Translations under genes and position numbers: made by a program
DNA from: Marinicella sp.
Lineage (GTDB): Bacteria > Pseudomonadota > Gammaproteobacteria > Xanthomonadales > Marinicellaceae
Direction of reading: 5' to 3'
NCBI GenBank assembly: GCA_028284365.1
Contig: JANQRW010000042.1
Location: forward strand, 1-64,000
DNA length: 64,000 nucleotides
The notes under the pieces: generated by a model
The model's database searches: none
Told to the model about the DNA's origin: nothing
The model's input: only the letters and a program-made list of their open reading frames with translations
In this document: positions 26-55,798 of the stretch, in pieces
How positions within the stretch are numbered: position 1 is the stretch's first letter
How the letters are laid out: the number at the start of each line of letters is the position of its first letter

Positions 26-99
26 TTTGAGTTCTCCTCTGTTTGATTTTAAGGGGAAAACTACACTTCGTCATGGCTTAATTTTTGGGGGAAAGGTCA
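1..99 (-). mobile_element. End of an IS3-like insertion sequence (truncated by window edge)
   Basis: Read on the minus strand, this stretch holds an IS end, a ribosome binding site and the first codons of a transposase. The outer end appears to be TGACCTTTCC at 99-90, since the acyltransferase reading frame stops making sense at that point. A GAGGAG ribosome site precedes an ATG at 25. IS3-type ends usually start with TG, which fits. The rest of the element lies left of the window, so family and length cannot be confirmed. Confidence 0.6.
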
Positions 100-275
100 T
101 GAGAATAATTTAAAGAAATCACAAAACCACTTAAAACGAAGAAAAAGTCCACCATTAACCAAGCATTTTTCACAAAATTTAATTCTAAATGGCTGTTTGT
201 TGATAAATGAAACAAGGCGACTGATATGGCAGCAAAGCCACGCAAGCTTTCTAGGGGTAAAAACATTTTTTTCAT
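100..275 (-). pseudogene. Acyltransferase family 3 fragment, cut by the IS
   Basis: The translation from the internal Met reads LESLRGFAAISVALFHL and then FFVLSGFVISLNY. These are the first two conserved blocks of acyltransferase-3 membrane proteins (O-acetylation of surface polysaccharides), including the conserved RG(F)AA and the His of the first transmembrane helix. About 58 residues remain of a family usually 350-650 residues long. The frame then runs into the IS end and stops at 78-80. A GGGAG ribosome site lies about 10 bases before the ATG at 275. This is the 5' stump of a gene broken by the IS. Confidence 0.7.
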
Positions 276-344
276 AAAATTTTGCTCCCATTTTATCTTG
301 ATGGGAGGGTCACTAATTGATTCTATACTTTTAAATTGTGTGTT

Positions 345-434
345 TTCATCATCCTTATCTCTGGCTTGACCTAGGCTTACATTTGGAAACACCCCATTGA
401 GAGTCTTGCGTTTACCATTGATGCGGTGATCCAA
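345..434 (-). pseudogene. Relic of a tyrosine integrase N-terminal arm domain
   Basis: About 30 residues, RINGKRKTLNGVFPNVSLGQARDK, match the arm-type DNA-binding domain (DUF4102) of P4-like tyrosine integrases, whose usual form is xINGKRKTLxLGxYPxVSLxxAR. There is no catalytic domain. The frame continues into unrelated sequence before the acyltransferase stump, so the ORF-track protein is a chance join of two relics. It is a trace of an older integration event at this site. Confidence 0.6.
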
Positions 435-869: not shown

Positions 870-1354
870 CCGCCCAAGGTTCAGGTGGTGATCAGGGTGG
901 CAAAAGACAAGCACCCTTCTCACTGCGCCTCAGCTTCGAGGAAAGAGCCAAGCTGGAAGATTTGGCAGGTGAAATGTCACTGTCTGCTTTTATCAAAGAG
1001 CATTTGTTTCAGGCTCAAATGCCAAGAAAACGCAGAAGACGTAGACCCGCCAAAGACAGTAAACTACTGGCTCAGCTTCTGGCTGTTTTGGGTAAATCAC
1101 GATTACCTCAGAACATGAATCAACTGGCAAAGGCGGCTCATACTGGTTCATTACCTTTACCCATTGAGGTTGAGCGTGAATTGAGACAAGCCTGCTCAGA
1201 CATTCGAGCCATGCGTGAAATGCTCATGAAGGGTTTGGGTTTGAAAGTCAAAGACCAACAAACCAAAGGCAAAGAGTCTTTGAGCCATGCTTTTACCAAA
1301 GCAGCCACGGATATCAGTGAGGTTGGTATGCGCTATCCAAGGCACATACCATGA
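866..1354 (+). CDS. Mobilization protein MobC-like (relaxosome accessory)
   Basis: A 162-residue basic protein with an N-terminal ribbon-helix-helix-like stretch (FSLRLSFEERAKLEDLAGEM) and a later block SRLPQNMNQLAKAAHTGSLP. The latter resembles the NNLNQIAKALNSG signature of the MobC family (PF05713). MobC proteins help the relaxase open the DNA at oriT. A very basic run, PRKRRRRRPAK, lies between the two. The gene overlaps the relaxase start by four bases (ATGA). Position, length and signature agree. Confidence 0.8.
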   Translation: MTAQGSGGDQGGKRQAPFSLRLSFEERAKLEDLAGEMSLSAFIKEHLFQAQMPRKRRRRRPAKDSKLLAQLLAVLGKSRLPQNMNQLAKAAHTGSLPLPIEVERELRQACSDIRAMREMLMKGLGLKVKDQQTKGKESLSHAFTKAATDISEVGMRYPRHIP

Positions 1355-2637
1355 TCATCAAAGCCTCACAGCGCAGTGGAGGTCAAAATCTGGCCTCCCA
1401 CCTGCTTAAAGCAGAAAATGAGCATGTACATGTTCATGAAGTGCGTGGTTTTATCTCAGACGACTTACATGAAGCCTTTGCTGAAATCCATGCCATATCC
1501 CAAGCCACCAACTGTAAGCAATATCTGTTCTCTGTCAGTTTAAACCCACCACAAAATGGACAAGTACATACTGATGTATTCATTAAGACGGCTGATGAAA
1601 TAGAAAAGAAACTCGGTTTACAAGATCAAGCCAGAGCCATTGTTTTTCATGAAAAAGAAGGCAGACGACATGCACATCTGGTTTGGTCAAGAATTGATGA
1701 AACAGAACTCAAAGCCATTAACCTGCCTTTTTATAAAAAGAAGGTCAATGAAATCGCCAAAGAACTCTATCTTGAACACAGCTGGGAGTTGCCAAAAGGT
1801 TTCCGTGATCCTCTGATGAAAGACCCACTCAACTTCAATCAAGCCGAATGGCAACAGGCCATGAGAACAGGCAGAGACCCCAGAGAAATCAAACACGTCA
1901 TCCAGCAAGCATGGCAACATTCTGATGGTAGCAAGGCTTTCAATGCAGCCATAGAACAATACGGTTACAAGCTCGCCAAAGGTGACCGCAGAGGCTTTGT
2001 GATCGTTGATTTCAAAGGTGAGGTTTACTCCCTACCCAAATGGGCAGGCATCAAAACCAAAGAAGCCAAAGCCAAACTGGGCAATCCCAATGACTTACCA
2101 ACAGTCGATGAAACCAAAGAACAATTCAGAAAAGCCCTTACCCCCAAACTCAAAACCATTAGTGACAACTTGAAAGCTGAACAAGCCAAAGAAATGCAAC
2201 TGCTCAACAAACAGAAACTCAAAATAGCTCAACTCCACCAACATGAGCGTAACCACCTAAAGACATACCATGAATACCGCTGGCGAGAAGAAACCAAGAA
2301 ACGCCAGAGTCGTTATAACAAAGGCTTGAGGGGTTTGGTTGATCGTTTCACAGGCAAACACACCGAAGTCAAAAGAAAAAATGAACAGGAAGCCTGGAGT
2401 AACCTGCAACGAGATAAAGAAGAACTTGACACGCTGTTGTTTGAACAACTAGAGCAAAGGCAACAACTACAACAGCAGGTTATACAGCTCAAAAAGCAAC
2501 AACTCCAAGATCATGAATGCCTAGCAAGTGATATAGGCAAAGCTCTTATTTATGAGACTAAAAAGACGACTTTATTTAATGAAAGAAATTATTTTACTCT
2601 AAAGGATAATGTTCAAAATCCTCAAATCGAGAGATAG
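1351..2637 (+). CDS. Relaxase / mobilization nuclease
   Basis: This 428-residue protein has the relaxase-domain core (PF03432 type): a nicking domain in the first ~170 residues with the metal-binding histidines in VFHEKEGRRHAHLVWSRID (H100, H107, H109). A long charged coiled coil (~250-400) follows, rich in Gln and Lys. It would nick and pilot the element from oriT. The last ~35 residues (ALIYETKKTTLFNERNYF...) switch to AT-rich, compositionally different sequence. I therefore suspect the original C-terminus was lost when the AT-rich cargo was inserted. The nicking domain itself looks intact. Confidence 0.85.
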   Translation: MIIKASQRSGGQNLASHLLKAENEHVHVHEVRGFISDDLHEAFAEIHAISQATNCKQYLFSVSLNPPQNGQVHTDVFIKTADEIEKKLGLQDQARAIVFHEKEGRRHAHLVWSRIDETELKAINLPFYKKKVNEIAKELYLEHSWELPKGFRDPLMKDPLNFNQAEWQQAMRTGRDPREIKHVIQQAWQHSDGSKAFNAAIEQYGYKLAKGDRRGFVIVDFKGEVYSLPKWAGIKTKEAKAKLGNPNDLPTVDETKEQFRKALTPKLKTISDNLKAEQAKEMQLLNKQKLKIAQLHQHERNHLKTYHEYRWREETKKRQSRYNKGLRGLVDRFTGKHTEVKRKNEQEAWSNLQRDKEELDTLLFEQLEQRQQLQQQVIQLKKQQLQDHECLASDIGKALIYETKKTTLFNERNYFTLKDNVQNPQIER

Positions 2638-2855: not shown

Positions 2856-4016
2856 GTGCCGTATTACAAGCCACTCAAAAACACTTCAATTGCCAACCGC
2901 AAAAGAACCGTTAACGGTTTACAACGCTTACGTCAACAATTAATAGATGAGCGTTTTCCAAATAAAAAATCATTAGACTCACTTATCCTTGGAACATGGA
3001 ATATCAGAAATTTTGATGATGATAGATTCAATTACGGCCCAAGGATGGAAGAATCAATGTATTACATCGCCGAGATCATTGCTCGTTTTGATGTAATTGC
3101 TATACAAGAAGTTTGCGCTGATTTGTGGCCTTTGAAACGGCTAATGCGCATTTTAGGCAGAAACTTTGACTATATTTTTACAGATGTTACTCACAGTTCA
3201 TTGGGAGGCAATAAAGAAAGACTCGGTTTCATTTACGATAAAAGCAAAGTTAGATTCACAGGAATAGCAGGTGAGATCGTTCTGCCTCCAAAACTAATGA
3301 TCAGTGAAGTTAGTTCCAAAAAAAGACAGTTTGCTAGAACGCCTTTTGGCGCGGATTTTCAGTCAGGCTGGTTTAAGTTTTATTTTTCAACTGTGCATAT
3401 CTACTTTGGTTCAAATAGCATAAGTTCAGATAAATACAAAAGGCGTGTTGAAGAAATAAATGCAGTTGCCAAATATCTTGCTAAGGAAGACAAAAAAAGT
3501 GATTCAAACCATATTTTAGTTGGAGATTTCAATATTAAAGAAAGAGGGAGCGATGGATATAATGCCCTTGAAAAAAATGGATTTGAAATTGTCCACAATA
3601 AAAAAGGTAGTAATCGGGATCAAACAAAACACTACGATCAAATTTCATTTAGGGCGAAGAAGGATGAATTGGTTTTTTTAGAGCCAGAGCGCGATGATAG
3701 AACTTTTCAATTTTTTAATAGTGTTTTTCGAAAGGAAGACTTTTCAACATACAAGCCAATAATGAAAAAAATGATTGGCAAGAAGTTAGAAAAGGCAAAC
3801 ATTGAGCTCACCAATGCAACATCACAAACTAAAAAGAAAAAGGCTCAAAAGCAAATTGATAGTTTAAATGAGGCTGTTCTTTCCGATACCTCTCTAAAAG
3901 AATATTACGAAGATTGGAGAACATTTCAAATGAGTGACCACCTCCCCCTTTGGGTTGAAATAAAGATCGATTTTAGTGACGAGTATCTTGAACATTTGAA
4001 AGATTATTCAGAGTAA
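2856..4016 (+). CDS. Endonuclease/exonuclease/phosphatase (EEP) family protein
   Basis: The 386-residue protein carries the DNase I-like fold signatures in order: GTWNIRNF (~46), AIQEV with the metal-binding Glu (~85), ERLGFIYD (~125), LVGDFN (~220) and a terminal SDHLPLWVE (~360). All catalytic residues of the Mg-dependent EEP superfamily therefore look present. A Lys-rich insertion (~310-345) separates the last two motifs. There is no signal peptide, so it should act in the cytoplasm on nucleic acid or a phosphoester. The GTG start is supported by GGGGGA nine bases upstream. It is the first of three same-strand AT-rich genes. The substrate is unknown, and a defence role is inferred only from location. 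Confidence 0.8.
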   Translation: MPYYKPLKNTSIANRKRTVNGLQRLRQQLIDERFPNKKSLDSLILGTWNIRNFDDDRFNYGPRMEESMYYIAEIIARFDVIAIQEVCADLWPLKRLMRILGRNFDYIFTDVTHSSLGGNKERLGFIYDKSKVRFTGIAGEIVLPPKLMISEVSSKKRQFARTPFGADFQSGWFKFYFSTVHIYFGSNSISSDKYKRRVEEINAVAKYLAKEDKKSDSNHILVGDFNIKERGSDGYNALEKNGFEIVHNKKGSNRDQTKHYDQISFRAKKDELVFLEPERDDRTFQFFNSVFRKEDFSTYKPIMKKMIGKKLEKANIELTNATSQTKKKKAQKQIDSLNEAVLSDTSLKEYYEDWRTFQMSDHLPLWVEIKIDFSDEYLEHLKDYSE

Positions 4017-4075: not shown

Positions 4076-5119
4076 TTGTATTTGACAAAATTTATTATAT
4101 TGAAAAGACGTTCGTACACTTTCTATTTAACATTGCTACTTGTATTGCTTTCGATTATTGCAAGCATTTCTTCTATTCTTGTGGGTTTAGCATTTGGTGA
4201 AGGTGGTTTTTTGACAGTTGAGAAACTTAATTGGAGTTTGTATCCATTGTTTTTCATTATTTGTGGACTGTTAATAAAAACATCATGGCATCTTTATATT
4301 GAAGCTTGGAACAGCTTGCCATCCAATAACGTTATTTATAGAAAGAATGTTGTAGAGAGAAGGTTAGATGTAATTAAGCCAACGGTTAAGCTTATAAACA
4401 AAGCCAGAGTCCCATTGATATTTGCGTCAGTGCTATTTGGATTTTTACTGTCTGCAATTGATGCATGGTGTTTATGGTTTGAATATGGCATTTTAAGGGG
4501 TGATCATTACTGTTCTGAGAATGATTTTTCTATTGCATTTAAATTAGAGTCTTATGTGGTTTCGAAATTTTCAAATGGTATTTTCGTTGTAGCAGTCTAC
4601 ACACTTCAAAGCTGTCTTATTTCAATGGGTTTGATAGCTTTATTTCAGATAATACTCCATGGGTACTTCTTTTTATTTTTTGAGAAAATTGAATCAAATA
4701 AAAAATCAAATATCGAGATTAAACTAAATATTAATGATCGATTAGGTGAGTTTGGTCTGACAGAAGTTAATAGGGCTTTGAATACAAACTATATCTTCAT
4801 TGCTGTCGCTATGACAATACCAGTGTTGTCGGCATTTTCTCAACCTGAGGGAGTTATTGATCATGGACAGTGGTTATTGAGATTGTTGCTCCCACTTTTG
4901 CTTTTAGCACCTTTAGCAATCCCTTATTATGATAGGTTTTTCAGAGTGAAAGAAGCATCTGATAGGGCGAAAGCTTCAGCTTCTGAAAATGATGCAGAAG
5001 ACTTTAAGAAACAATCTCTGTTTCCATTTGAAGGGACACAGTTGGGGTATCTGGGTAAAACTGCTGCCGCAATTGCTTTGGCACAATACATTTATCTTTT
5101 CACAAACACTTTTTTTTAA
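4076..5119 (+). CDS. Multi-pass membrane protein, unknown function
   Basis: 347 residues with about seven hydrophobic segments: near residues 14-36, 54-72, 113-135, 168-203 (long, perhaps two), 238-256, 268-286 and 328-345. A soluble loop around 205-235 contains NDRLGEFGLTEVNRALNTNY. No family is recognised. The TTG start is weak; GAGGG lies some 20 bases upstream, so the start is uncertain. It is followed 14 bases later by the coiled-coil membrane protein and preceded 60 bases by the EEP nuclease. The three form a likely transcription unit. Confidence 0.6.
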   Translation: MYLTKFIILKRRSYTFYLTLLLVLLSIIASISSILVGLAFGEGGFLTVEKLNWSLYPLFFIICGLLIKTSWHLYIEAWNSLPSNNVIYRKNVVERRLDVIKPTVKLINKARVPLIFASVLFGFLLSAIDAWCLWFEYGILRGDHYCSENDFSIAFKLESYVVSKFSNGIFVVAVYTLQSCLISMGLIALFQIILHGYFFLFFEKIESNKKSNIEIKLNINDRLGEFGLTEVNRALNTNYIFIAVAMTIPVLSAFSQPEGVIDHGQWLLRLLLPLLLLAPLAIPYYDRFFRVKEASDRAKASASENDAEDFKKQSLFPFEGTQLGYLGKTAAAIALAQYIYLFTNTFF

Positions 5120-5133
5120 AGGAACAGAGCATA

Positions 5134-5823
5134 ATGACAAAATTGACGCAACAAGCTCAATATGAAATACAAAATCAAGTTAACAAAACCTTATCAAAGT
5201 GGGCAAAAATAATTGGTGTAACTAACTTAATTTTCTTGATAGGGCTTTTTGGATATGTCTTCTTTATTTTCCCAGACCAAGTTATTGGTCCAACCTCTGA
5301 GAAGGTAGTTGAGGAGTTAAAAGGAAGAACCAAAAACTTGTTGAACGAATTGGAGGATGAACATGTTGAAGCGTTTGTATTAATCGGAAATATTGAAGAA
5401 AGAGCAAAAAATCATAACCAAAGACTAGTTGCTCTAAAAGTGGTCTTAGAGTCTTTAGAAAATGAGCTTGAAAGCGTGTCAAAGGGTGTGAACTCAATAA
5501 ATACCCCAGTGATTGAGAAATTAGTAAATTTTATTGAAAGCACAACCGACTCGGAGGAAATAGTGTCATTTGCTGAACAAACATCAAGGCTCAAAGAGGA
5601 TGTTAATCAGCTAAAAGATACAATCGATTCTCTTGGAATGATACCTGAAAAACAGAAATTCGTTATAAATGGGCCAAGAATCGGAGGAGCTGATGCTCAT
5701 GAATGTCCTCCTGGGTATTTTGTGACAAGCCTTCATGCATCAGGTTCTGTTGGTGGGAAATACGGGGTTGATGGAATAAGTGAAATAAGATTTTCTTGTA
5801 GTCCTTTAGTTTCGAAAAAATAG
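5134..5823 (+). CDS. Membrane-anchored coiled-coil protein, unknown function
   Basis: 229 residues: a short cytoplasmic N-terminus, one transmembrane helix (~22-47, IIGVTNLIFLIGLFGYVFFIF), a long heptad-rich coiled coil (~55-180) and a small C-terminal domain with HECPPGYFVTSLHASG and a second Cys near the end. A good AAGGA site precedes the ATG. The small Cys-containing tail could be an extracytoplasmic sensing head, but that is inference. It is the third gene of the nuclease/membrane cassette. Confidence 0.6.
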   Translation: MTKLTQQAQYEIQNQVNKTLSKWAKIIGVTNLIFLIGLFGYVFFIFPDQVIGPTSEKVVEELKGRTKNLLNELEDEHVEAFVLIGNIEERAKNHNQRLVALKVVLESLENELESVSKGVNSINTPVIEKLVNFIESTTDSEEIVSFAEQTSRLKEDVNQLKDTIDSLGMIPEKQKFVINGPRIGGADAHECPPGYFVTSLHASGSVGGKYGVDGISEIRFSCSPLVSKK

Positions 5824-5871: not shown

Positions 5872-5900
5872 TTGACCCACTTCATTATTATTGCTATCAT
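5872..5900 (+). promoter_or_regulatory. Sigma70-type promoter for the 5.9-8.5 kb cassette
   Basis: TTGACC (5872-5877) and TATCAT (5895-5900) are separated by exactly 17 bases, with AT-rich flanks and the ATG of the first cassette gene 29 bases beyond. This makes the following three genes an independent unit. Confidence 0.55.
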
Positions 5901-5928: not shown

Positions 5929-6576
5929 ATGTTACAAAAATCTAAAAAGATACTTTTAGTTCCCAATGGATATGGACGATTAAGGTATATTGACTCCCTT
6001 TCTAAAGTTCTAGTCAATAACATTAATAGTCAGGTGTTAATTACAGAATACGAAGGTACGAGACATACTAAAGGAAAGTTAAACATTGATAATGCATTGG
6101 CGTCCTTGAAAAAAGACATAAAATCATTAAGCAACCAAGCAAGCACTCGAATTACAATAATTGCACATTGCAGCGCACTTATATTATTAACAAAACTTGA
6201 TCCTAAATCATCTATCTGGGAGAGTGTCAACAAGATTATTGTTTATAACTATTTGGCAAACCCTATGAAAAGTCTCAAACGGTTTTTTTTCAAGGCAAAA
6301 AAGTATGATGTTTCCTACGACTTTAAAAATATAAAAGAAGACATTGAAACTTTCAAGTCATCAGACATAGAAAATATTCCTGTTCCAATTCATATTATTC
6401 ACCCTGATACTCCACTCAACAAACTAAGAGCAAATGATAGGGATTTAAAAAACCTTAATTCACTCCGAAATATCAGCACTGTAAGTAAACCTTCGCTTGG
6501 TTATGAAATATTGGATAAAACACAATCTGAAATTATGGAAACAGTCGTCAAAAGTCAGTTAATTCCTCTGCTATAG
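5929..6576 (+). CDS. Alpha/beta-hydrolase-like protein with Cys at the nucleophile position
   Basis: 215 residues. The first strand/turn (KILLVPNGYG, 7-16) and the elbow ITIIAHCSALILL (75-87) look like a small alpha/beta hydrolase. Where the family has GHSxG, this protein has A-H-C-S-A, placing Cys81 at the nucleophile. PVPIHIIHPDTP (~155-166) would supply the acidic residue. No His follows in the last 45 residues, so the triad is incomplete or non-canonical and the protein could be a non-catalytic binding module. It lies 9 bases before the symporter gene, behind a clear promoter. The fold assignment is by eye. Confidence 0.5.
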   Translation: MLQKSKKILLVPNGYGRLRYIDSLSKVLVNNINSQVLITEYEGTRHTKGKLNIDNALASLKKDIKSLSNQASTRITIIAHCSALILLTKLDPKSSIWESVNKIIVYNYLANPMKSLKRFFFKAKKYDVSYDFKNIKEDIETFKSSDIENIPVPIHIIHPDTPLNKLRANDRDLKNLNSLRNISTVSKPSLGYEILDKTQSEIMETVVKSQLIPLL

Positions 6577-6585
6577 AGAAGTCTA

Positions 6586-7962
6586 ATGGAACAAATATTA
6601 ATACTGATTATTTTATTCGTGTACTTAATAGTTGGCTTAATCCCTTCTGTTAAACATGCTGGTGATCGGGCTTATATTATTGCAAATAAAGATCTGAATG
6701 AATTTCAAACGGCTGCAACCATTTTAGCCAGTAAAATTGGAGGTGGTTTACTTGTAAGTTACAGCAGTTTGTTCTACCTTCATGGTACCTCTGCCTTCTT
6801 TTTCTTCATTGGTGCGACATTTGGTTATTGGGTTTATTATCATTTGATCAAGACATATGCTTCTAATTTTAAAAATGAAGATGTAGTATCTCTTACGGGT
6901 TTATTTCAGGAAAAATATGGGTCTGAAAGCTACACACCTCGGTTAATTGGAATATTAGTTACTCTCAGCATGTTGGGCTGGGTTATTACTAATATCATTG
7001 CAGGCACTCAAATCATCTCATCTTTGACAGAGTTCAGTGAACTACTGGTACTCTTTACTTTAATGACGATCATAACCAGCTATCTTCTGATTGGTGGATT
7101 CTATTCAGTTGTAAAAACGGACATTATTCAACTGATTGCTATTATTGTGGCTTTTATCATTGTTACTTTGGCTGCATTCCACTTTACTTCAAACGACTCT
7201 GGTGCCTTATTTGAATTTCAAGGAACAGAGGCAATTGGCATTGGCAAAATAATTTCTTTTTTCATCTTAGGCATTTTATTTCCACTAGGTTCTGCTGAAC
7301 TCACACAAAGGTCAATAGCAGCAAGAGATGAAAAGACATTGAGAAAATCCCTAGTTTTTACAGCTTTAATATATCTTTTAGCTGGATTACTTTTATCTTT
7401 AATTTGTTTTAAATTATCCAGCTTTTTTCAAGCATCTGAACTCAATGAAAATAATTTCTTATCCGTTGGAGTTGCATATTTTTTTAAAGAACAATTATTA
7501 CTAAAAACCATCTGGATTATCGCATTCATTTCGATAGTAGTTTCTTCAGCTGACACTTTCATATTTACATCTGCCTCGTCTTTTGTAACCGATGTTTTAA
7601 AAATTAATAAAAGTGACTATGTAGTTGGCATACGTTGGTCGATCTTTTTGATCTCTTGTTTTGCAATCATGTGCTATTACCTTTTTAACTCCATAACCGA
7701 TGTTACTGTTGTAGCTATAGGAATTACATTGATACTTTCGGCCTTTTTCATTGGAATGAGATTTAGTGGTTTCTTTACAGCCTTAAATAACAGCAAATAT
7801 TCATTTCTTATTGGGTTAATAAGCATTTTGTCACTTATTTTTGCTGTGGCAGTTATACCAAACATAGGAGAGAAACCTGCTTTCGCACTAGTAGGCTTTG
7901 TGATATTTATGCTGCTTTCAACAATGTTAAGTATATTTTTGAAGTTTTCATCATCAAAATAG
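6586..7962 (+). CDS. Sodium:solute symporter (SSS) family transporter
   Basis: 458 residues with about 13 hydrophobic helices and the layout of the SSS family (LeuT fold, Na+-driven uptake). An early ANKDLNEFQTAATILASKIGGG block corresponds to the broken TM1/2 region, and GILFPLGSAELTQRSIAARDEKTLRKS resembles the conserved loop near TM8 (cf. QR..aakd...). The substrate cannot be told. An SSS transporter is unusual in a defence-rich cargo region. It is flanked at 9 and 8 bases by the hydrolase-like gene and a small membrane protein, so the three should be made together. Confidence 0.75.
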   Translation: MEQILILIILFVYLIVGLIPSVKHAGDRAYIIANKDLNEFQTAATILASKIGGGLLVSYSSLFYLHGTSAFFFFIGATFGYWVYYHLIKTYASNFKNEDVVSLTGLFQEKYGSESYTPRLIGILVTLSMLGWVITNIIAGTQIISSLTEFSELLVLFTLMTIITSYLLIGGFYSVVKTDIIQLIAIIVAFIIVTLAAFHFTSNDSGALFEFQGTEAIGIGKIISFFILGILFPLGSAELTQRSIAARDEKTLRKSLVFTALIYLLAGLLLSLICFKLSSFFQASELNENNFLSVGVAYFFKEQLLLKTIWIIAFISIVVSSADTFIFTSASSFVTDVLKINKSDYVVGIRWSIFLISCFAIMCYYLFNSITDVTVVAIGITLILSAFFIGMRFSGFFTALNNSKYSFLIGLISILSLIFAVAVIPNIGEKPAFALVGFVIFMLLSTMLSIFLKFSSSK

Positions 7963-7970
7963 AGTAACTT

Positions 7971-8519
7971 ATGACGGAAGCCAAACTTGCACAATACAAG
8001 ATATTGTGGGACACCATAGAATCTGAACTAAAGCGGTTCTGGCAAGGTTTTCATATACTGTCTGTAATGAAAGTCGCCCTCTTAAGTACTTCATTAACAT
8101 TTCTGAATGGTGATGATGATGAACAACGTCTTACGCTCTTACAAAACCTTGTCGAGAATAAGCATATATGGTTGACGTTGTTATTTGGAACTATCGTTTT
8201 GGCAATAATCAATGTATTACTTAACTTGAGAGCTCAATCTGTTTATTTAGCGTTAACATCAGCAGTTAGAGAGTTTGAAAAAGAAGACTCTACACTTAAT
8301 TTAGCTGAGATGATTATTAAAAGCAGCCCAATTTTTAAAGAGCAATCAATCCCTCAAGGTTCTGAATGTACTGAAACGCCAGAAAACCTCAAGATTCCCC
8401 CGAAATATCGAGTAAAGGCTTTCCCATACGCAATGGCGGTGGCAAATGTATTGCCAATATTGATAATCAATATATCATTAATAATTACTTATTTGATTAT
8501 TTTTAATATAAAGCCCTGA
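7971..8519 (+). CDS. Small membrane protein, third gene of the symporter cassette
   Basis: 182 residues with hydrophobic segments near 30-48, 66-88 and 150-180 and a soluble acidic/polar middle (~90-145). It starts with a charged amphipathic stretch (AKLAQYKILWDTIESELKRFW). No family is recognised. It starts 8 bases after the symporter stop. It resembles in outline small effector-type membrane proteins, but that is not enough to assign a role. Confidence 0.55.
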   Translation: MTEAKLAQYKILWDTIESELKRFWQGFHILSVMKVALLSTSLTFLNGDDDEQRLTLLQNLVENKHIWLTLLFGTIVLAIINVLLNLRAQSVYLALTSAVREFEKEDSTLNLAEMIIKSSPIFKEQSIPQGSECTETPENLKIPPKYRVKAFPYAMAVANVLPILIINISLIITYLIIFNIKP

Positions 8520-8626: not shown

Positions 8627-10483
8627 TCATATCAAAATAACTTCATTATCTGTAAACCAAGACTCTAGTGCGTATTTTCGTACTGCCTGTGGATTTTTGG
8701 TGTATGCAACAATGGCTAAACTTTTTTCTGCACGACTACAAATAACATAGAATAGTCGTCGTGTTCTGAGCGGGGTAGAATCTTTGCCATCTTTTTGATT
8801 TTTTAAATCTGTCGGACTTAGTGGTTCTGCCCCTAATAATTTTTCATATTTAAACAAAAAGCCTCCTGCACTTTCATCATCTAAAATCGCCATTACCCTG
8901 TCAAACTCTAAACCCTTTACACCTTGGTGAGTTCCGAAGCCCGATTCTTGAATAACATAGTCTGAATATGCTTCAATCTGAGTTATCGTGGCTCGCATTG
9001 CTTTTACCCATGCGACCAACTCATCCGGTTTCGTTTCCTCTTCTTCGTCTGATGAAATAGTGGCTTGGATAGCAAGCTGTAGCATCTCTGGTAACTCCAA
9101 CAAGTTATAATCAGAAATCAATAATAATAGCTCCCTAATTGTTAAGTCTTTTTCTGAAAGTTGAGCTTTAACCTTCTCTATATTTTTATCCGCCTCACCT
9201 AAAAAAGATATGGGGTTTTCAGAGGTTTCTAATTTATTTAAAAAATTATTTCCATTCTTAACAATTCTGGCAATTTCAAAAGCGTCGTTAGTATTGATTG
9301 CTTGAACCAAAGGTATAATTTGATTAAGAATGAAACTGATTTCAGAACTTGTTCCATCTAAAACTGAATCTCGTAACTTTTGATTTCTAGCAAGAGGCAA
9401 AAAGAATGAATCAAAATTTCCTCTTTCGGCAGCCATAGCATGCTCAAGAATTAAATTTTTCACCCCATTTGTTTCAATCCATTCTTCATCTCTGGTAATC
9501 TTGGACATTTCTAACCGAACAGCATCTTCCACAGTTTTTTTATCAGCAACATCAGACCTGACTATAAAAAGCCTTACTGCACCAATTGAAGCATTTTCTC
9601 TAGGCTTTTGCTCAATCCCATCTACTTCTTTTCTTATAGCGTTGACCAGGTTAATAATTCTCTTTGGACTTCTATAGTTAATGTACTTAGCAGGTTTTTT
9701 CCAATCAGGCGGTGTTTTATCAAGGTCTTCCTTTCCTCCACCATAAATACGTTGCATCATGTCACCGAATAAACCAAGTGCAAACTTTGATTTATTTGCT
9801 TGCTGCACTTTAATCAAGGCCGTAATAAAATCTTTATTCGTATCTTGGCTTTCATCAATTAACAATAAGGGAAATCTATTTATGAGTAAGGATTGCATTA
9901 GAGATTGTTCGGAAATAAATTGTGCTGCCATTGCAATCACCTCAGGGTGATTTAGAGCATCTCTCTCAGGCCTACCCCCAGCTGGGCTATAGCTAAACTC
10001 TACGATCGAGTCGATTTTTTCTAATCTTTTTTCTTTACTATCTAGGCTTCTAATATTTCTTTGTGCAGTAATTCCATTTATATCCTTAGCCTTACTAATT
10101 TTTAACTTTAAATCCTGTATTTGCTCTAACAAACGTACTTTTAAAAAATTCCTAATATCCTCATTGAATGGTTTTATAAGTTCCCAAGCAAAACTGTGAA
10201 TTGTCGAGACACTGAAGGCAGGATCGTAATTCAACCTGTGTTTTATTTCATCACAAGCTGCGTTTGTATATGTTATTACTGCAACTTTACCACCTGTGTA
10301 AGTGTACTTTTGAATGTCACTCTTCTTGATAAGTTCTAGCACGTTTACTAAAGTGCGTGTTTTTCCAGACCCTGCTCCAGCAAATAACAAAAAACTTGAA
10401 GGTACATCAGAACTTAAATAATGGTAAATTTCTTTATCTACATCATCAAAATGCTCAGGAAAATTGGGGGTTAATTTACTCAT
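8627..10483 (-). CDS. gajB: UvrD/Rep-type helicase, Gabija GajB-like
   Basis: The 618-residue superfamily 1 helicase has Walker A AGAGSGKT (35-42), Walker B LLIDESQD (~210), motif III/IV-like LFGDMMQRIYGGG, a GTHQGVKGLEFDRVM motif V and a RRLFYVICSRAEKSL motif VI. I place the start at the internal Met (MSKLTPNF), whose ATGAGTAA overlaps the GajA stop by eight bases. The ORF-track start lies inside gajA. In Gabija, GajB is activated by DNA termini and works with the GajA nuclease to abort phage infection. Adjacent order and overlap with an OLD-family gene support that call. It is longer than the usual ~500 residues. Confidence 0.8.
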   Translation of the reverse strand: MSKLTPNFPEHFDDVDKEIYHYLSSDVPSSFLLFAGAGSGKTRTLVNVLELIKKSDIQKYTYTGGKVAVITYTNAACDEIKHRLNYDPAFSVSTIHSFAWELIKPFNEDIRNFLKVRLLEQIQDLKLKISKAKDINGITAQRNIRSLDSKEKRLEKIDSIVEFSYSPAGGRPERDALNHPEVIAMAAQFISEQSLMQSLLINRFPLLLIDESQDTNKDFITALIKVQQANKSKFALGLFGDMMQRIYGGGKEDLDKTPPDWKKPAKYINYRSPKRIINLVNAIRKEVDGIEQKPRENASIGAVRLFIVRSDVADKKTVEDAVRLEMSKITRDEEWIETNGVKNLILEHAMAAERGNFDSFFLPLARNQKLRDSVLDGTSSEISFILNQIIPLVQAINTNDAFEIARIVKNGNNFLNKLETSENPISFLGEADKNIEKVKAQLSEKDLTIRELLLLISDYNLLELPEMLQLAIQATISSDEEEETKPDELVAWVKAMRATITQIEAYSDYVIQESGFGTHQGVKGLEFDRVMAILDDESAGGFLFKYEKLLGAEPLSPTDLKNQKDGKDSTPLRTRRLFYVICSRAEKSLAIVAYTKNPQAVRKYALESWFTDNEVILI

Positions 10484-12797
10484 CTGTATCCACCTTGTCT
10501 TCCTCTTGAGTGAGCAGGTAATCAACGGATGCTTTTTTCAATTCAACTTGCAACCAATCTAACCCCTCCTTGATATAAATCGGTATTTGTAAGTCTTTGG
10601 GTTCAATATCGAATATGACATCTAGAGCCATTTTTGCTTTGTATTTATTATCTAGAGCATCAAACATAGCCTGAGTAGCTTCTTCTAAAGTCTTTTCTTC
10701 ACAAGCAGCTTTCATTTTTTTCAGCATTGCTATTGGTTTGACTAGTTTCTTAACTAAAGCAATATTCGTTAGTACCAAAGCATCTTCAAATGTGTATGGA
10801 ATAGCTTGCTCAATTTGATCCTCTTTAAATTCAACATCTATTTCATTTTGATATGCCACACGAGCATTTGCTTTCACTTTTTTGTCTGGCTTAGCCCTTA
10901 GTACCTCATCCAACGAAGAAATGTTTAAATCAAACCATTTGTCTAAAGTAGAGTTGTCAGAACATTGATTTACTCCTTTTTTAGGCTTTACAGAACCAAT
11001 ACCGATTGTTTCTTCTTGATTTTTGATTACACTTTTTTCTCCTTTGGAATCGAGGTCAGTTATTACGAGAGTTGGCAGCCCTAATGCATCTATTAAAGGC
11101 TTTACCCTTTGAGCATGTGCACCCCCAATTTCTAAGATAGATATATAGCTTCTATTTAAACCTTCTGGCGTGTCATAATTGTTGCGAATGAAGTGTGGTA
11201 GCAGCATTCTTTCGGCAGCACCTTCGACAATGATTATTCCATTTGCAAAAAACAAGTCACAATGTGTGGTTTTAATGTATCTGGTAACAAACTTTTTGGT
11301 ATCTTCTAAATCATCTCCCCCTTTTTTATCTTCTTTAAAAATATCTGAAAGTCCAATCACCTCAGCACAAGCGACTTCTGACATACTAGTAGATGCAATT
11401 CGCTTAAAATATCGCAATTTATCAAAACCTACCTCATTCGCAATGTAGCTTGAATGGCTACTAACTAATACTTGTGTACTGAGTCGGGCAGGAACATCTT
11501 TTCTTAAAACCTCAAATGCTTTTCGGATAAAAACTTGTTGTACTTGAGCATGTAAATGAGCTTCGGGTTCTTCTATCAAAACGATATGTAATGGCTCTAT
11601 TGGTGAGTCGCTCGCAGCAGGCTTATTTTTTGCTTTACCTGTTCGCATCCATCTATCCCTAAAACTAATTAACTTAAAAATCATAAAAATCAGATTTTTA
11701 TAACCTAAGCCGTTGTAACTTTCAGGGAGGGCTAACTCTTTTGATTTATTTTTATTCGGTTTTTTTACATCAAAAATTACTGTTGTATTGTGAGCCAAAT
11801 TTTGAACAGGATCAGCATTACTAGAAAGTATGATTTCAGGATCGTTGAACCCTGGATAGCCAAGTCCTCTCAATTCATTCAAAGCACCATCAAAAGCATC
11901 GTTTAGTTTCTCATCAAAAGATTTTTGAGCTTTGTCGATGGCTGTTAATGCTTCAACATCTTCTTGCTCAGGGTGATCAGTGGGGTTTAAGTGACGAACA
12001 TAGTATTGATGCAACTGTGAAGATAAACTTACACTGGTAGCTCCTGTCATCGAATAAGGATCAGAAAACCCCCTCTGGGCATCAATAATGTCTACTTTAA
12101 ACATGTCCTTGAAAGGATAACTTTTCAGTGGTTGCAACTCTGGTCTTAAAGCTTGCGGCTTATGGTTGTCTCTAGCTATATCAGGATCGAGCAAGTACGC
12201 TTTGATTTCAAAGTATGAACTGAGTTTAGTATCAAGAAACTCTCTGATATTTCTCGGCCAAAGTTGTATTTTTATACTTTTTTCTTTACCTTCATTAGAA
12301 CCTTCAACAGCATTTTTGGCGGAGTTTAAAGCGGCTAAAAAGTCAGACATTAAATTTTCTAATGACTTAGGCTGATATATTAACCTCACACCTAACAACC
12401 CTCCCTTCCATTTTAGAGTTGGTATTAAGTGACTAACATAATGAATTTCCTCCACTTTCACATTCAACCATATGTCAAGAGACGGGCAGAACTCTTGCCA
12501 CTCAGTAAGTGAATCACCAATAATTTCTTCAGGAGAAAAATTCCAGCTTGCTCCAAACTTGTTCAAAGTAGACCAATTCGACAACGTAAAATCTGTTGTG
12601 CAAAGCTTTCTACGTCCAGTATTTTCATCATTCTTTTGATGCTGTGAAGCTTGGCCTAAAAAAATAATTAACGCGTCAATTGCTGATGTCTTTCCACTAT
12701 TGTTTGCTCCTACAAAAATGGTTTCATTCTCAGCTAAATAAATTCGGGTAGATTTTAATTTTCGGTAATTTTGAATATCAATAAATTCAATTTGCAT
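10476..12797 (-). CDS. gajA: OLD-family ATPase/TOPRIM nuclease, Gabija GajA-like
   Basis: 773 residues. An ABC-type ATPase half has Walker A GANNSGKTS (30-38), a signature-like region near 360-370, Walker B HIVLIEEPEAHLH (404-416) and H-loop SSHSS (446-450). The C-terminal TOPRIM half shows IIIVEGAAERM (E525) and VITDLDSKGE (D581, D583). This is the OLD/GajA architecture: a nucleotide-sensing DNA nickase. It is clearly longer than well-studied GajA proteins (just under 600 residues), with extra sequence after the TOPRIM core and between the ATPase motifs. The gene is coupled to gajB by an 8-base overlap. AGAGGG precedes the ATG. Confidence 0.8.
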   Translation of the reverse strand: MQIEFIDIQNYRKLKSTRIYLAENETIFVGANNSGKTSAIDALIIFLGQASQHQKNDENTGRRKLCTTDFTLSNWSTLNKFGASWNFSPEEIIGDSLTEWQEFCPSLDIWLNVKVEEIHYVSHLIPTLKWKGGLLGVRLIYQPKSLENLMSDFLAALNSAKNAVEGSNEGKEKSIKIQLWPRNIREFLDTKLSSYFEIKAYLLDPDIARDNHKPQALRPELQPLKSYPFKDMFKVDIIDAQRGFSDPYSMTGATSVSLSSQLHQYYVRHLNPTDHPEQEDVEALTAIDKAQKSFDEKLNDAFDGALNELRGLGYPGFNDPEIILSSNADPVQNLAHNTTVIFDVKKPNKNKSKELALPESYNGLGYKNLIFMIFKLISFRDRWMRTGKAKNKPAASDSPIEPLHIVLIEEPEAHLHAQVQQVFIRKAFEVLRKDVPARLSTQVLVSSHSSYIANEVGFDKLRYFKRIASTSMSEVACAEVIGLSDIFKEDKKGGDDLEDTKKFVTRYIKTTHCDLFFANGIIIVEGAAERMLLPHFIRNNYDTPEGLNRSYISILEIGGAHAQRVKPLIDALGLPTLVITDLDSKGEKSVIKNQEETIGIGSVKPKKGVNQCSDNSTLDKWFDLNISSLDEVLRAKPDKKVKANARVAYQNEIDVEFKEDQIEQAIPYTFEDALVLTNIALVKKLVKPIAMLKKMKAACEEKTLEEATQAMFDALDNKYKAKMALDVIFDIEPKDLQIPIYIKEGLDWLQVELKKASVDYLLTQEEDKVDTDE

Positions 12798-12986: not shown

Positions 12987-13850
12987 ATGGGTAAGAAAAA
13001 AAAAGTAAAAGATGAACCTGCCATAGAAAACAAATTAAGAATCTATGTAAGAAAATTTATAAAATTCAATGAGCACCTATGTAAAAAGCTAAACAGAAGT
13101 CAGAAACTCTTTTATGTAGGTATTTGGGCTATGCTTTTTACTTTCTTTGCAAATTTTGTCGCACCAATTGAGTTTGTGCGTGTCTGGCTGGTGATAACAT
13201 TTTTTGTTTTCATTTGTGGAATCATTTCTGATTTATTATTCATATATGACAAGCTCTGGAAGACACATTTGGGAAAAGGAGTAATTCTAATTATTTATGC
13301 ATTTACTTTGAATTTTGCATATGCTTTTTCTTCTGTAATTGTTAATGATGTTGTTATGTTTCAATCGTTATCGTTAACTTACACCGTAAATTTTGTAGCG
13401 ATACTCTTGATACCGTTGATAGCAATATTATTGAGTTTTGTAGTTTTTGGGGTATTTATTATCATTTCACAATTGTATGCAGTTATCGCCATAACAATTT
13501 CTGATATGAAACCAATAGAGTGCTTAAAAGGACTTGTTCCAGATAAGGTTGAAAACTATTTCAAAACAACCCTTGTGCTCAGAATTCTTATTTACTCTTC
13601 TGCTTTTGGAGCTATCAGTGCAATTGCAAAAAGCAGTATGCCCAAATATGAAGAATTCATTTATAGTGCTACCAAATCATTCATCTATCATTTAGAGGCT
13701 ATTCAGCATTCTCGATGCAGCTTGGAGCCTGGAGAAAAGTCTATAATTGTAAGTGACGAAGAAATCGTTGTTGTTAGTAAAACAAAAGGCAAGTATTCAT
13801 TTAAGCCTCAATTGTGCAAGCCAAAATTGCTTGGCATGAAAGAAAAATAG
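12987..13850 (+). CDS. Membrane protein, unknown function
   Basis: 287 residues: a Lys-rich N-terminus (MGKKKKVKDEP), then hydrophobic segments near 42-62, 66-88, 98-120, 130-165 and 195-212, and a soluble C-terminal domain (~215-287). The tail contains EEIVVVSKTKGKYSFKPQLCKPK, which looks like a small beta-rich module. No family is recognised. It is divergent from gajA and 102 bases upstream of the PD-(D/E)XK gene on the same strand, so the two may be a pair. Confidence 0.55.
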   Translation: MGKKKKVKDEPAIENKLRIYVRKFIKFNEHLCKKLNRSQKLFYVGIWAMLFTFFANFVAPIEFVRVWLVITFFVFICGIISDLLFIYDKLWKTHLGKGVILIIYAFTLNFAYAFSSVIVNDVVMFQSLSLTYTVNFVAILLIPLIAILLSFVVFGVFIIISQLYAVIAITISDMKPIECLKGLVPDKVENYFKTTLVLRILIYSSAFGAISAIAKSSMPKYEEFIYSATKSFIYHLEAIQHSRCSLEPGEKSIIVSDEEIVVVSKTKGKYSFKPQLCKPKLLGMKEK

Positions 13851-13952: not shown

Positions 13953-15188
13953 ATGAAACAAAAAACGCTTTTTACAAAACTTGATTGGTCAAGTGTAGAA
14001 AAAAATCAAAAAAGAGCAATGCTTGAAGAAATCTCTACTCTGGACAAAGGCCGTATTTTAGGGGCTTCAATTACTGACTTGTGTGAATACTTCTTCACAA
14101 AATACAAAATTAATACACCTGTTTTGATGGAGGACGAGATTGTTGCCGATCAATATGAAGTAAACATTGATGTTCGCCACGATCTAACAAGAAGTGTCAG
14201 GGACAGAAGTAGGCCGTGCTATGTAAGTGGAACACGTATCGAAGTTATTGTCCCAATTGAAGGAGAGGCTGATGTTTTTAAGATTCATCCAACAACTTAT
14301 GGGACAAGTTATCCATTTGGCGTTATTAAAAACCAGAATTTAGTAATTTCTGTAGAAGGGATAGATTTGAATCCAGATAAGGTGCGTTTTCAAATCGACC
14401 AAAATCTTTCTGATATAAAAAAGTATTTAGGGTATGTCAGTGGTGATATTGGAAATTTAAACGATCAACTTTATGAGCTTGCTGAGCACCACATCAATAA
14501 AAGAAAAGACAAAGTATTGGCTGACCACAACCTTGTGGCTTCGTTGGGGTTTCCTTTGAAGCAAAGGAAAGACAACTCAAGAACTTACCAAACATCAAAG
14601 GTGGTGCGTAAGATAAAGCCTAAACTGCCTCCTGCATCTACCAAACCATATACACCAGAGCCAGAAATCTCTATGGATGACTATGAGCATATATTGGGTG
14701 TAATGGAAAATATGATTGATGTAATGGAAAGAAGCCCATCCGCATTTGCAACAATGAATGAAGAAGACATTCGTACACACTTTCTTGTTCAGCTTAATGG
14801 CCATTATGAAGGAAAAGCCACTGGTGAAACATTTAATTACAAAGGTAAAACAGACATTCTAATACCTGTTAATGGCAGAAATGTTTTCATTGCTGAGTGC
14901 AAGTTTTGGTCAGGCTCAAAAGGTTTTTTGAAATCTATTGATCAATTGCTCAGTTATAATTGTTGGAGGGATAGTAAAACAGCTCTGATTATATTTAACA
15001 GAAGAAAAAACTTATCTTCTGTTTTAAGCTCAATACAAAAAAATATCGAAAAACATGAGAATTACAAAAAAGAAATTGATCAAGAAAGTGAGACAAATTT
15101 CAGATACATATTCTCAAATAATGACGACATTGACAGAGAAATCATGCTAACGGTAATGGTATTTGATGTACCAAGTGAGCAAGTATAG
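13953..15188 (+). CDS. PD-(D/E)XK nuclease-like protein
   Basis: 411 residues. The C-terminal third reads GKTDILIPVNGRNVFIAECKFW followed by SIDQLLSYNCWRDSKTALIIFNR. The D...E-x-K spacing with a following helix that carries Q/D is typical of PD-(D/E)XK restriction-fold nucleases. The N-terminal two thirds (~1-230) contain a beta-rich section (YVSGTRIEVIVPIEGEADVFKIHPTTYG) of unknown kind, perhaps a sensing domain. AT-rich codon use matches the neighbouring cargo. Its place beside Gabija suggests defence, but that is an inference. Confidence 0.6.
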   Translation: MKQKTLFTKLDWSSVEKNQKRAMLEEISTLDKGRILGASITDLCEYFFTKYKINTPVLMEDEIVADQYEVNIDVRHDLTRSVRDRSRPCYVSGTRIEVIVPIEGEADVFKIHPTTYGTSYPFGVIKNQNLVISVEGIDLNPDKVRFQIDQNLSDIKKYLGYVSGDIGNLNDQLYELAEHHINKRKDKVLADHNLVASLGFPLKQRKDNSRTYQTSKVVRKIKPKLPPASTKPYTPEPEISMDDYEHILGVMENMIDVMERSPSAFATMNEEDIRTHFLVQLNGHYEGKATGETFNYKGKTDILIPVNGRNVFIAECKFWSGSKGFLKSIDQLLSYNCWRDSKTALIIFNRRKNLSSVLSSIQKNIEKHENYKKEIDQESETNFRYIFSNNDDIDREIMLTVMVFDVPSEQV

Positions 15189-47574: not shown

Positions 47575-50166
47575 ATGAACAGTGCTTATCGCAAAAAATT
47601 ACCTGAAACAGATTTGGATTACTTTGATACCCGAGAGGCCGTCGAAGACATAACAGCGGGGGCATTTAATGAACTGCCTTTTACAGCTAAGGTTTTAGCA
47701 GAAAACCTGGTGAGAAAATGTCCACCTGAAAATTTAGATGCCAGTTTGCGTCAGATCATAGAACGTCGCCGGGATTTGGATTTCCCTTGGTTTCCTGCGC
47801 GTGTGGTGTGCCATGATATTTTGGGTCAAACAGCCTTTGTTGATTTGGCCGGTTTACGTGATGCCATTGCCGAAAAAGGTGGTGATCCAGCACAAATTAA
47901 CCCAGTGGTGCCTACGCAATTGATTGTTGACCATTCTTTAGCAGTAGAACATGCTGGCTATGAAAAAGACGCTTTTGCCAAAAACAGGGCGATTGAAGAT
48001 CGCCGCAATGCCGATCGATTCAGATTCATTAACTGGTGTAAAACCGCTTTCAAAAACGTCAATGTGGTGCCACCTGGTAATGGCATCATGCACCAAATTA
48101 ATTTAGAGCGCATGTCTCCTGTGATCCAAGCACGTGATGGCGTGGCTTTTCCAGATACCTTGGTCGGTACCGACTCGCACACACCGATGGTCGATGCATT
48201 AGGTGTGATTGCTGTTGGTGTGGGCGGCTTAGAAGCTGAATCTGTTATGTTGGGTCGTGCTTCATACATGCGGTTACCAGATATTATTGGCGTGGAGATG
48301 GTTGGTAAGCCTCAGCAGGGCATCACCAGTACCGACATTGTTTTGGCTTTGACTGAATTTTTGCGTAACGAGAAAGTGGTATCCAGTTACTTGGAATTTT
48401 ATGGTGAAGGTGCCGATGCACTGACTTTGGGCGACCGTGCTACCATTTCCAACATGACACCGGAGTTTGGTGCGACGGCGGCGATGTTTTATATTGATCA
48501 ACAAACCATTGATTACCTGACCTTAACTGGTAGAGATGTAGCACAGATTAAACTGGTTGAGCAGTATGCAAAACAAGCGGGCTTGTGGGCTGACCAAATG
48601 ACTCAAGCAAAATATGAGCGGGTGTTGACCTTTGATTTGGCAGCGGTGGGTCGCAATATTGCTGGTCCATCTAACCCACATGCCAAAGTGGCAGTCACCG
48701 ATTTAGCTGACAAGGGCATCACCGGTGATTACAGCAGTGAAGATGGCCTGATGCCAGATGGTGCTTGTATCATTGCAGCGATCACCAGTTGTACCAACAC
48801 ATCTAACCCTAAAAACATGATTGCTGCTGGCCTGATCGCGCGCAACGCCAATCGTTTGGGCCTGACCCGAAAGCCTTGGGTTAAAACATCTCTGGCGCCG
48901 GGTTCTAAAGCCGTGACTTTGTATTTGGAGGAAGCTGAGTTGTTACCTGAGTTGGAACAATTGGGTTTTGGGGTGGTGGCTTATGCCTGTACTTCTTGTA
49001 ACGGTATGAGTGGCGCCTTGGACCCAAAAATCAAACAAGAAATTTTAGACAGGGATCTGTATTCAACAGCGGTACTTTCAGGTAATAGGAATTTTGATGG
49101 TCGGATTCACCCACATGCTGACCAAGCCTTTTTGGCCTCGCCGCCACTGGTGGTGGCTTATGCCATAGCTGGTTCGATTCGTTTTGATATTGAAAAAGAT
49201 GTGTTAGGCATTGATCAAGAAGGCAACGAAATTCACCTGAAAGACATCTGGCCCTCTGATGAAGAGGTCAATGCGGTGATCAAAGCCAGTGTTAAACCTG
49301 AACATTTCAGTCAAGTCTACGAGCCGATGTTTAATCTGCAGGAAATGCTCAATAAGAAAACCAACCCTTTGTATGATTGGGACGTGCGTTCCACCTACAT
49401 CCAAAGACCACCGTATTGGGAAGGTGCTTTGGCCAAAGAACGCACCATGCGCGGTATGCGCCCTCTGGCTGTGCTGGGTGATAACATCACCACAGATCAT
49501 TTGTCACCTTCTAACGCCATTCAGTTATCCAGTGCAGCAGGCGCTTATTTGCACAAAATGGGTTTGCCAGAGGAGGATTTTAATTCCTACGCCACGCACC
49601 GCGGAGATCACTTGACGGCACAAAGAGCCACCTTTGCTAACCCGAAGTTATTGAATGAGATGGTGCTTGATGAAAAGGGTGAGGTCATTCAGGGCTCGCT
49701 TGCCAGGCTTGAGCCAGAGGGCAAACAAATGCGTATGTGGGAAACCATTGAAACTTACATGGAACGTGAACAGCCGTTGATCATTGTTGCGGGCGCTGAT
49801 TACGGCCAGGGTTCATCCCGCGACTGGGCCGCCAAGGGTGTGCGCTTAGCTGGTGTGGAAGTGATTGTGGCCGAGGGTTTCGAGCGCATTCACCGCACTA
49901 ATTTAATTGGTATGGGTATATTGCCGCTGGAATTTACAGGTGGCGAAACCCGCAAAACCTACAACATCGATGGCACCGAAACTTATGACGTGCAAGGCGA
50001 GATTGCACCAGGTACCCAAATGCAAGTGATCATGACCCGCAAAAACGGTGAGATAGCCACCATTCCGGTTAAATCAAGATTAGATACCGCTGAAGAGGTA
50101 TTGATTTATGAAGCCGGCGGTGTGCTACAGCGTTTTGCCAATGATTTTTTGGCAGGAAATGATTAA
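47575..50166 (+). CDS. acnD: 2-methylcitrate dehydratase, Fe/S-dependent (AcnD)
   Basis: 863 residues of the aconitase A type. The opening MNSAYRKKLPETDLDYFDTREAVEDI and LDFPWFPARVVCHDILGQTAFVDLAGLRDA match AcnD rather than AcnA, and the prpF gene downstream confirms it. Cluster Cys lie in ITSCTNTSNPKNM (~403) and YACTSCNGMSG (~470). The swivelling domain (DYGQGSSRDWAAKG, ~740) is intact. It converts 2-methylcitrate to 2-methyl-cis-aconitate in propionate breakdown, with PrpF as isomerase helper. prpB and prpC are not adjacent. A foreign restriction operon begins 5 bases after its stop. Confidence 0.9.
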   Translation: MNSAYRKKLPETDLDYFDTREAVEDITAGAFNELPFTAKVLAENLVRKCPPENLDASLRQIIERRRDLDFPWFPARVVCHDILGQTAFVDLAGLRDAIAEKGGDPAQINPVVPTQLIVDHSLAVEHAGYEKDAFAKNRAIEDRRNADRFRFINWCKTAFKNVNVVPPGNGIMHQINLERMSPVIQARDGVAFPDTLVGTDSHTPMVDALGVIAVGVGGLEAESVMLGRASYMRLPDIIGVEMVGKPQQGITSTDIVLALTEFLRNEKVVSSYLEFYGEGADALTLGDRATISNMTPEFGATAAMFYIDQQTIDYLTLTGRDVAQIKLVEQYAKQAGLWADQMTQAKYERVLTFDLAAVGRNIAGPSNPHAKVAVTDLADKGITGDYSSEDGLMPDGACIIAAITSCTNTSNPKNMIAAGLIARNANRLGLTRKPWVKTSLAPGSKAVTLYLEEAELLPELEQLGFGVVAYACTSCNGMSGALDPKIKQEILDRDLYSTAVLSGNRNFDGRIHPHADQAFLASPPLVVAYAIAGSIRFDIEKDVLGIDQEGNEIHLKDIWPSDEEVNAVIKASVKPEHFSQVYEPMFNLQEMLNKKTNPLYDWDVRSTYIQRPPYWEGALAKERTMRGMRPLAVLGDNITTDHLSPSNAIQLSSAAGAYLHKMGLPEEDFNSYATHRGDHLTAQRATFANPKLLNEMVLDEKGEVIQGSLARLEPEGKQMRMWETIETYMEREQPLIIVAGADYGQGSSRDWAAKGVRLAGVEVIVAEGFERIHRTNLIGMGILPLEFTGGETRKTYNIDGTETYDVQGEIAPGTQMQVIMTRKNGEIATIPVKSRLDTAEEVLIYEAGGVLQRFANDFLAGND

Positions 50167-55663: not shown

Positions 55664-55798
55664 GTGAAAAATCATAACAAAAACAGGACAAGAGCAACAT
55701 TGAAAAGGTATTCAAAATTGGGCTAATAAACACAATGAGTTTTTGCTTGAGTTGGGCTTATGATCTTTACCTGTCAACAGAGTAGAAGAAACAAAAAA

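Follow-up and report, generated by a model that had tools for sequence, protein, structure and literature searches.

The locus considered here raises the question of whether three genes packed end to end on a mobile element of a marine-type gammaproteobacterium (genes 1–3, Table 1) form one functional unit and, if they do, which process that unit would serve. The genes lie in a window of 64,000 nt, the whole stretch of DNA that was analysed. According to our analysis, the three genes point in one direction, follow each other closely and are carried as cargo by a mobilizable element that also bears defence genes. From this arrangement we infer co-transcription and a single accessory module, and our tentative first choice for its role is defence against phages or other mobile elements, organized around a transporter or a sensor.

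Table 1. Coordinates of the trio and of other features of the window, with their main sequence characteristics.
Feature	Position	Strand	Remarks
Truncated acyltransferase-like ORF	78-434	-	at contig end; integrase-like N-terminal stretch
MobA/VirD2-type relaxase	1351-2637	+	E 2e-14
Exo_endo_phos nuclease-like protein	2856-4016	+	Pfam E 1.5e-8
Orphan multi-TM protein gene	4076-5119	+	347 aa; upstream of trio
Orphan TM + coiled-coil protein gene	5134-5823	+	229 aa; C-terminal CPPGYFVTSLHASG...CSPL domain
Promoter-like site	5872-5900	+	TTGACC-17-TATCAT, extended -10 TG; 10/12 matches; in gap before gene 1
Gene 1	5929-6576	+	215 aa; ATG start; soluble, no TM segment; fold assignment without statistical support
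Gene 2	6586-7962	+	458 aa; ATG start; divergent solute:sodium symporter (SSS) superfamily member (PF00474); no substrate assigned
Gene 3	7971-8519	+	182 aa; ATG start; three hydrophobic helices; sub-threshold 8xMP (PF24838) likeness
GajB (Gabija UvrD-like helicase)	8627-10525	-	PADLOC E 6e-229; convergent with trio
GajA (Gabija OLD-like ATPase/TOPRIM nuclease)	10476-12797	-	PADLOC E 3e-258
Orphan membrane protein	12987-13850	+	287 aa; between Gabija and PDC-S54
PDC-S54 phage-defence candidate	13953-15188	+	PADLOC E 4e-155
Aconitase-like gene	47575-50166		flanks AT-rich insertion
Type III restriction-modification-like pair and third, RhuM-like gene	50172-55663	+	AT-rich insertion
PrpF-like gene	55760-56980		flanks AT-rich insertion

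Gaps of 9 nt (genes 1 and 2) and 8 nt (genes 2 and 3) separate the three genes, and gene 3 encodes a product with three hydrophobic segments, both in accordance with a preliminary description of this DNA. Compared with composition shuffles, codon usage favours the annotated frames (z = 2.2 for gene 1, 7.2 for gene 2 and 3.0 for gene 3), and all three ORFs are therefore probably genes; gene 1, with the lowest value, is the weakest case among them. The GC content of the trio is 0.32–0.35 versus 0.39 for the window as a whole. As described earlier, the trio lies in the AT-rich cargo of a mobilizable element, whose other genes include the relaxase, ArdA, a type IV coupling protein and, next to tRNA-Leu, a large serine recombinase. 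A search of positions 1–29000 revealed no direct repeat of the tRNA-Leu end; the window starts at a contig end, and the left end of the element lies outside it. The ORF at the contig end is truncated and acyltransferase-like, with an integrase-like stretch at its N-terminus.

The neighbour that had been called Gabija-like is in fact Gabija proper, with GajA and GajB standing in tandem and matching the PADLOC models over nearly their full length. It adjoins the trio on the element, on the opposite strand, and has no component in common with it. The orphan membrane protein beyond Gabija has only a partial match (residues 195–281) to hypothetical proteins of Moraxella plasmids. Plasmid-borne homologs of PDC-S54 (30–44% identical) occur in Rhizobium, Thauera, Nostoc, Streptomyces, Spiroplasma and others, haloarchaea among them, which is a very broad distribution for a candidate of no known function. 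Homologs of the Exo_endo_phos protein (32–33% identical) occur on Roseibium and Sphaerotilus plasmids, where they adjoin either a large N-6 DNA methylase or CRISPR Cas1/Cas2 and the BREX gene pglW; the product is possibly an undescribed solitary defence nuclease. Further along the window, an AT-rich insertion between an aconitase-like and a PrpF-like gene contains a type III restriction-modification-like pair and a third, RhuM-like gene.

Within the same family, one genome (locus L078, genome G023, contig C130) encodes a MobA 47% identical to the relaxase of the window, which heads a different cargo consisting of ArdA, a type II methyltransferase, a Ppl-like AAA protein and a RadC-like gene. 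The cargo borne by relatives of this relaxase is thus exchangeable and of defence type, and this is the only real argument for assigning the trio to defence.

Of the three identities proposed earlier, that of gene 2 alone is confirmed. Its product passes the Pfam SSF profile (PF00474; E = 7.7e-16, 58.4 bits against a cut-off of 22.8) over residues 30–341, confirming the Na+:solute symporter of the preliminary description. No NCBIfam equivalog or subfamily cut-off of a named SSS type (PutP, PanF, VC_2705/ActP) was reached: the best score was 48.3 bits, with a superfamily model (cut-off 184), and the PutP model gave 43.9 bits (cut-off 515.5). The best relatives in whole-genome searches were about 20–28% identical, 28% being the maximum among the homologs found. 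In an alignment with 21 homologs, with the PutP of P. lactucae as the PutP reference, gene 2 keeps Ala48, Ser320, Ser321, Asp179 (Na3-type), Gln182 and the invariant Arg242. The Na2 site, formed in PutP by A53, M56, A337, S340 and T341, reads A48, I51, I317, S320 and S321; the TM8 hydroxyls are thus retained, whereas Ala337 is replaced by Ile317. The adjacent Asp55 of PutP is replaced by Lys50, at a position occupied by Asp in 12 of the 21 homologs and by Lys or Arg in none. The function of Escherichia coli PutP depends critically on Asp55, for which a role in forming an inner gate has been proposed, and SSS proteins, including CbrA, can serve as sensors (PMC7918813). Gene 2 differs from the CbrA-type sensors in having neither the STAC domain nor the kinase domain of CbrA. 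Judged by its residues, the gene 2 protein is probably intact and transport-competent, and Lys50 may indicate an altered ion or gate chemistry.

The nature of gene 1 is less clear. By eye, an N-terminal strand is followed about 68 residues on by an elbow, A-H-C81-S-A, and then by a strand end with HP-D and by G-Y192-E. The order of these elements is like that of alpha/beta hydrolases, with GYE in place of the usual GH-x. Compared with these enzymes, including the dienelactone hydrolases with a Cys nucleophile, the elbow has Ala for Gly, and Tyr192 stands for His; the protein thus shows neither the elbow G-x-[S/C]-x-G nor the catalytic His of an active hydrolase. The Cys-elbow hydrolase assignment of the preliminary description fits the layout, but profiles and hhalign lend it no support. 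None of the profile libraries recognised gene 1, and no Pfam abhydrolase profile matched it; RutD came up at E = 0.13 with the register that an alpha/beta hydrolase would show, and hhalign against 25 abhydrolases gave a full-length path, in register, with a score of 12.5, which lies inside the range for shuffled sequences (mean 11.5, maximum 19.9) and not above that for unrelated proteins. A single-sequence AlphaFold2 model (pLDDT 30) was too poor for a fold search. Two other matches, both short, weak and biologically incoherent, were set aside as noise, namely those to PF00517 (retroviral GP41) and to Csx27 in PADLOC (E = 0.002 over 70 residues only). Gene 1 may encode a degenerate alpha/beta-hydrolase-like protein; since this fold, if right, comes without the usual triad and the profiles are silent, the hydrolase label counts as a lead rather than a result, and activity as a hydrolase is unlikely.

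The likeness of gene 3 to the membrane effector 8xMP lies in its three TM helices, an amphipathic-looking N-terminal helix and a soluble segment that separates TM2 from TM3. Its score against PF24838 (E = 0.0012, 19.1 bits) is nevertheless below the gathering score of 30 bits, and hhalign against three true 8xMP proteins, a set that excluded the window protein itself, gave no match (probability 0.2%). The single-sequence AlphaFold2 model (pLDDT 56) has three long helices and was too poor for a fold search. The true 8xMP genes encountered occupy different surroundings from gene 3, and no SSS gene stood beside them in the stretches read. In an unrelated gammaproteobacterium (L037, 6362-7256), a TIR-like gene of the MTH538 type directly adjoins a true 8xMP gene, and the two are possibly a sensor-effector pair.

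The trio had also been proposed as an undescribed cassette that might serve defence, nutrient sensing or toxin import. Its recurrence as a unit found no support in our searches, which yielded none of the genes a second time, together or apart. Orthologs of gene 2 were not found in 101 relatives, in 399 genomes of the phylum, in two other gammaproteobacterial orders (395 and 373 genomes) or in a third (73 genomes). These samples overlap in part and amount to a few percent of known species, and in many of the genomes scoring was limited to the four best candidates. Nor were orthologs found in 72,556 plasmids, 50,697 phages and viral contigs. GTDB contigs of 85,462 species gave no close relatives of gene 2, the contig scans requiring exact 8-residue matches and so detecting close relatives only. 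Relatives of gene 1 were not found in plasmids, phages, viral contigs and 101 genomes, nor those of gene 3 in plasmids, phages, viral contigs and 369 genomes, and the DNA of the trio was not found in complete E. coli genomes.

Three candidate loci were rejected. The contig scan with gene 2 yielded a single Pseudomonas lactucae locus and nothing else, and this locus owed its match to a chance 8-mer, FEFQGTEA, in a VgrG-like gene beside putP. In the phage entry MT835995, apparently actinobacterial DNA, an SSS gene lies beside a FAD-dependent oxidoreductase-like gene and lacks the trio partners. The SSS gene of a contig catalogued as viral (L072, 3578-4999) stands alone, also without these partners; the contig is plasmid-like, and the gene is a solitary SSS transporter gene amid partition and replication genes of plasmid type.

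The preliminary description had held that the cassette would be refuted if the three genes never co-occurred elsewhere. Within the reach of our searches no co-occurrence was found. This says little in either direction, since none of the genes turned up singly and the large collections reveal close relatives only. Either the cassette is rare or it has only distant relatives, and it is not to be called conserved; whether it recurs is a point on which these searches speak neither for nor against.

The extent of the transcription unit bears directly on the rival explanations. Of all sigma70-like sites in the region, the best lies in the 105-nt gap 5' of gene 1. The promoter of its own ascribed to the trio thus has a counterpart in the sequence, but Markov resampling produced a site this good in 3–9% of equally long stretches, and at this chance level independent transcription of the trio from the site is possible and only suggestive. 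The trio could instead be the 3' part of a longer plus-strand operon which, with the two upstream orphan genes, would encode a five-gene membrane system. All five genes lie on one strand with gaps of 15, 105, 9 and 8 nt, share a low GC content and lack relatives in what was searched (plasmids, viral contigs and 41 related genomes for the 347-aa gene, viral contigs for the 229-aa gene), and no terminator-like site was found in the 105-nt gap that separates the upstream pair from the trio. The top promoter-like site of the region lies in that same gap and argues against this longer operon, which we regard as unlikely. Chance assembly, in which three separately acquired cargo genes are merely packed together, as often happens in accessory regions, would agree with the trio not being found elsewhere. 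The two consecutive same-strand gaps below 10 nt are operon-like, and we consider chance assembly improbable; in operons, successive gaps of this size are typical, and the member genes are usually linked in function.

An ordinary niche cargo for uptake and catabolism has a somewhat better claim, although it too is doubtful. In such a cassette, the SSS protein would import an amino acid, an organic acid, an osmolyte or a similar solute, gene 1 would process it as a hydrolase and gene 3 would provide an accessory subunit. The SSF match over the cut-off and the retained Ser320/Ser321, Ala48, Arg242, Gln182 and Asp179 make gene 2 look transport-competent and favour this explanation. However, gene 2 reaches no equivalog family that would name a substrate, no regulator or further metabolic gene is adjacent, gene 1 has no recognisable triad (Cys81 is flanked by Ala, and Tyr192 stands for His), and the neighbours are defence and mobility genes. 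The Lys50 replacement and the lack of catalytic positions in gene 1 also fit sensing or regulation better than catabolism. We rank a defence module first, followed by the uptake cassette, the longer operon and the chance neighbours.

Tight gaps, a real SSS protein and the context of Gabija, PDC-S54, ArdA, the coupling protein and the relaxase all count, tentatively, for the defence module, as do the Exo_endo_phos protein with the plasmid settings of its homologs, the defence-type cargo of the related relaxase and the sensor function known for SSS proteins such as CbrA. In the proposed scheme, the SSS protein would form the membrane core, either as a transporter or as a transporter-derived sensor comparable to the CbrA-type SSS proteins; the three-TM product of gene 3 would be its membrane partner or a killing subunit, and the soluble product of gene 1 a cytosolic regulator or ligand-binding partner rather than an active hydrolase. 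Upon infection, the complex might shift the flux of ions or solutes over the inner membrane, and growth would stop. Several results count against the defence module. Neither the cassette nor any of its genes was found a second time, and there is therefore no conserved association to point to; PADLOC-DB contains no model for genes 2 and 3 and gave only the Csx27 match for gene 1; and the likeness of gene 3 to a membrane effector failed direct comparison. In addition, plain transporters are the majority of SSS proteins. Our literature search found no paper tying an SSS transporter to phage defence. A new type of anti-phage system, composed of an SSS transporter with Lys50, a three-TM partner and a soluble, dead hydrolase-like regulator, seems rather unlikely.

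In conclusion, the locus presently stands as one example of an orphan operon inside a defence-rich mobile element, and a defence role for it is a reasonable conjecture rather than a result. Should this role be true, Lys50, which replaces an aspartate of the gate or ion site, would offer an immediate single-residue test, and bacterial immunity would count secondary transporters among its membrane effectors and sensors.
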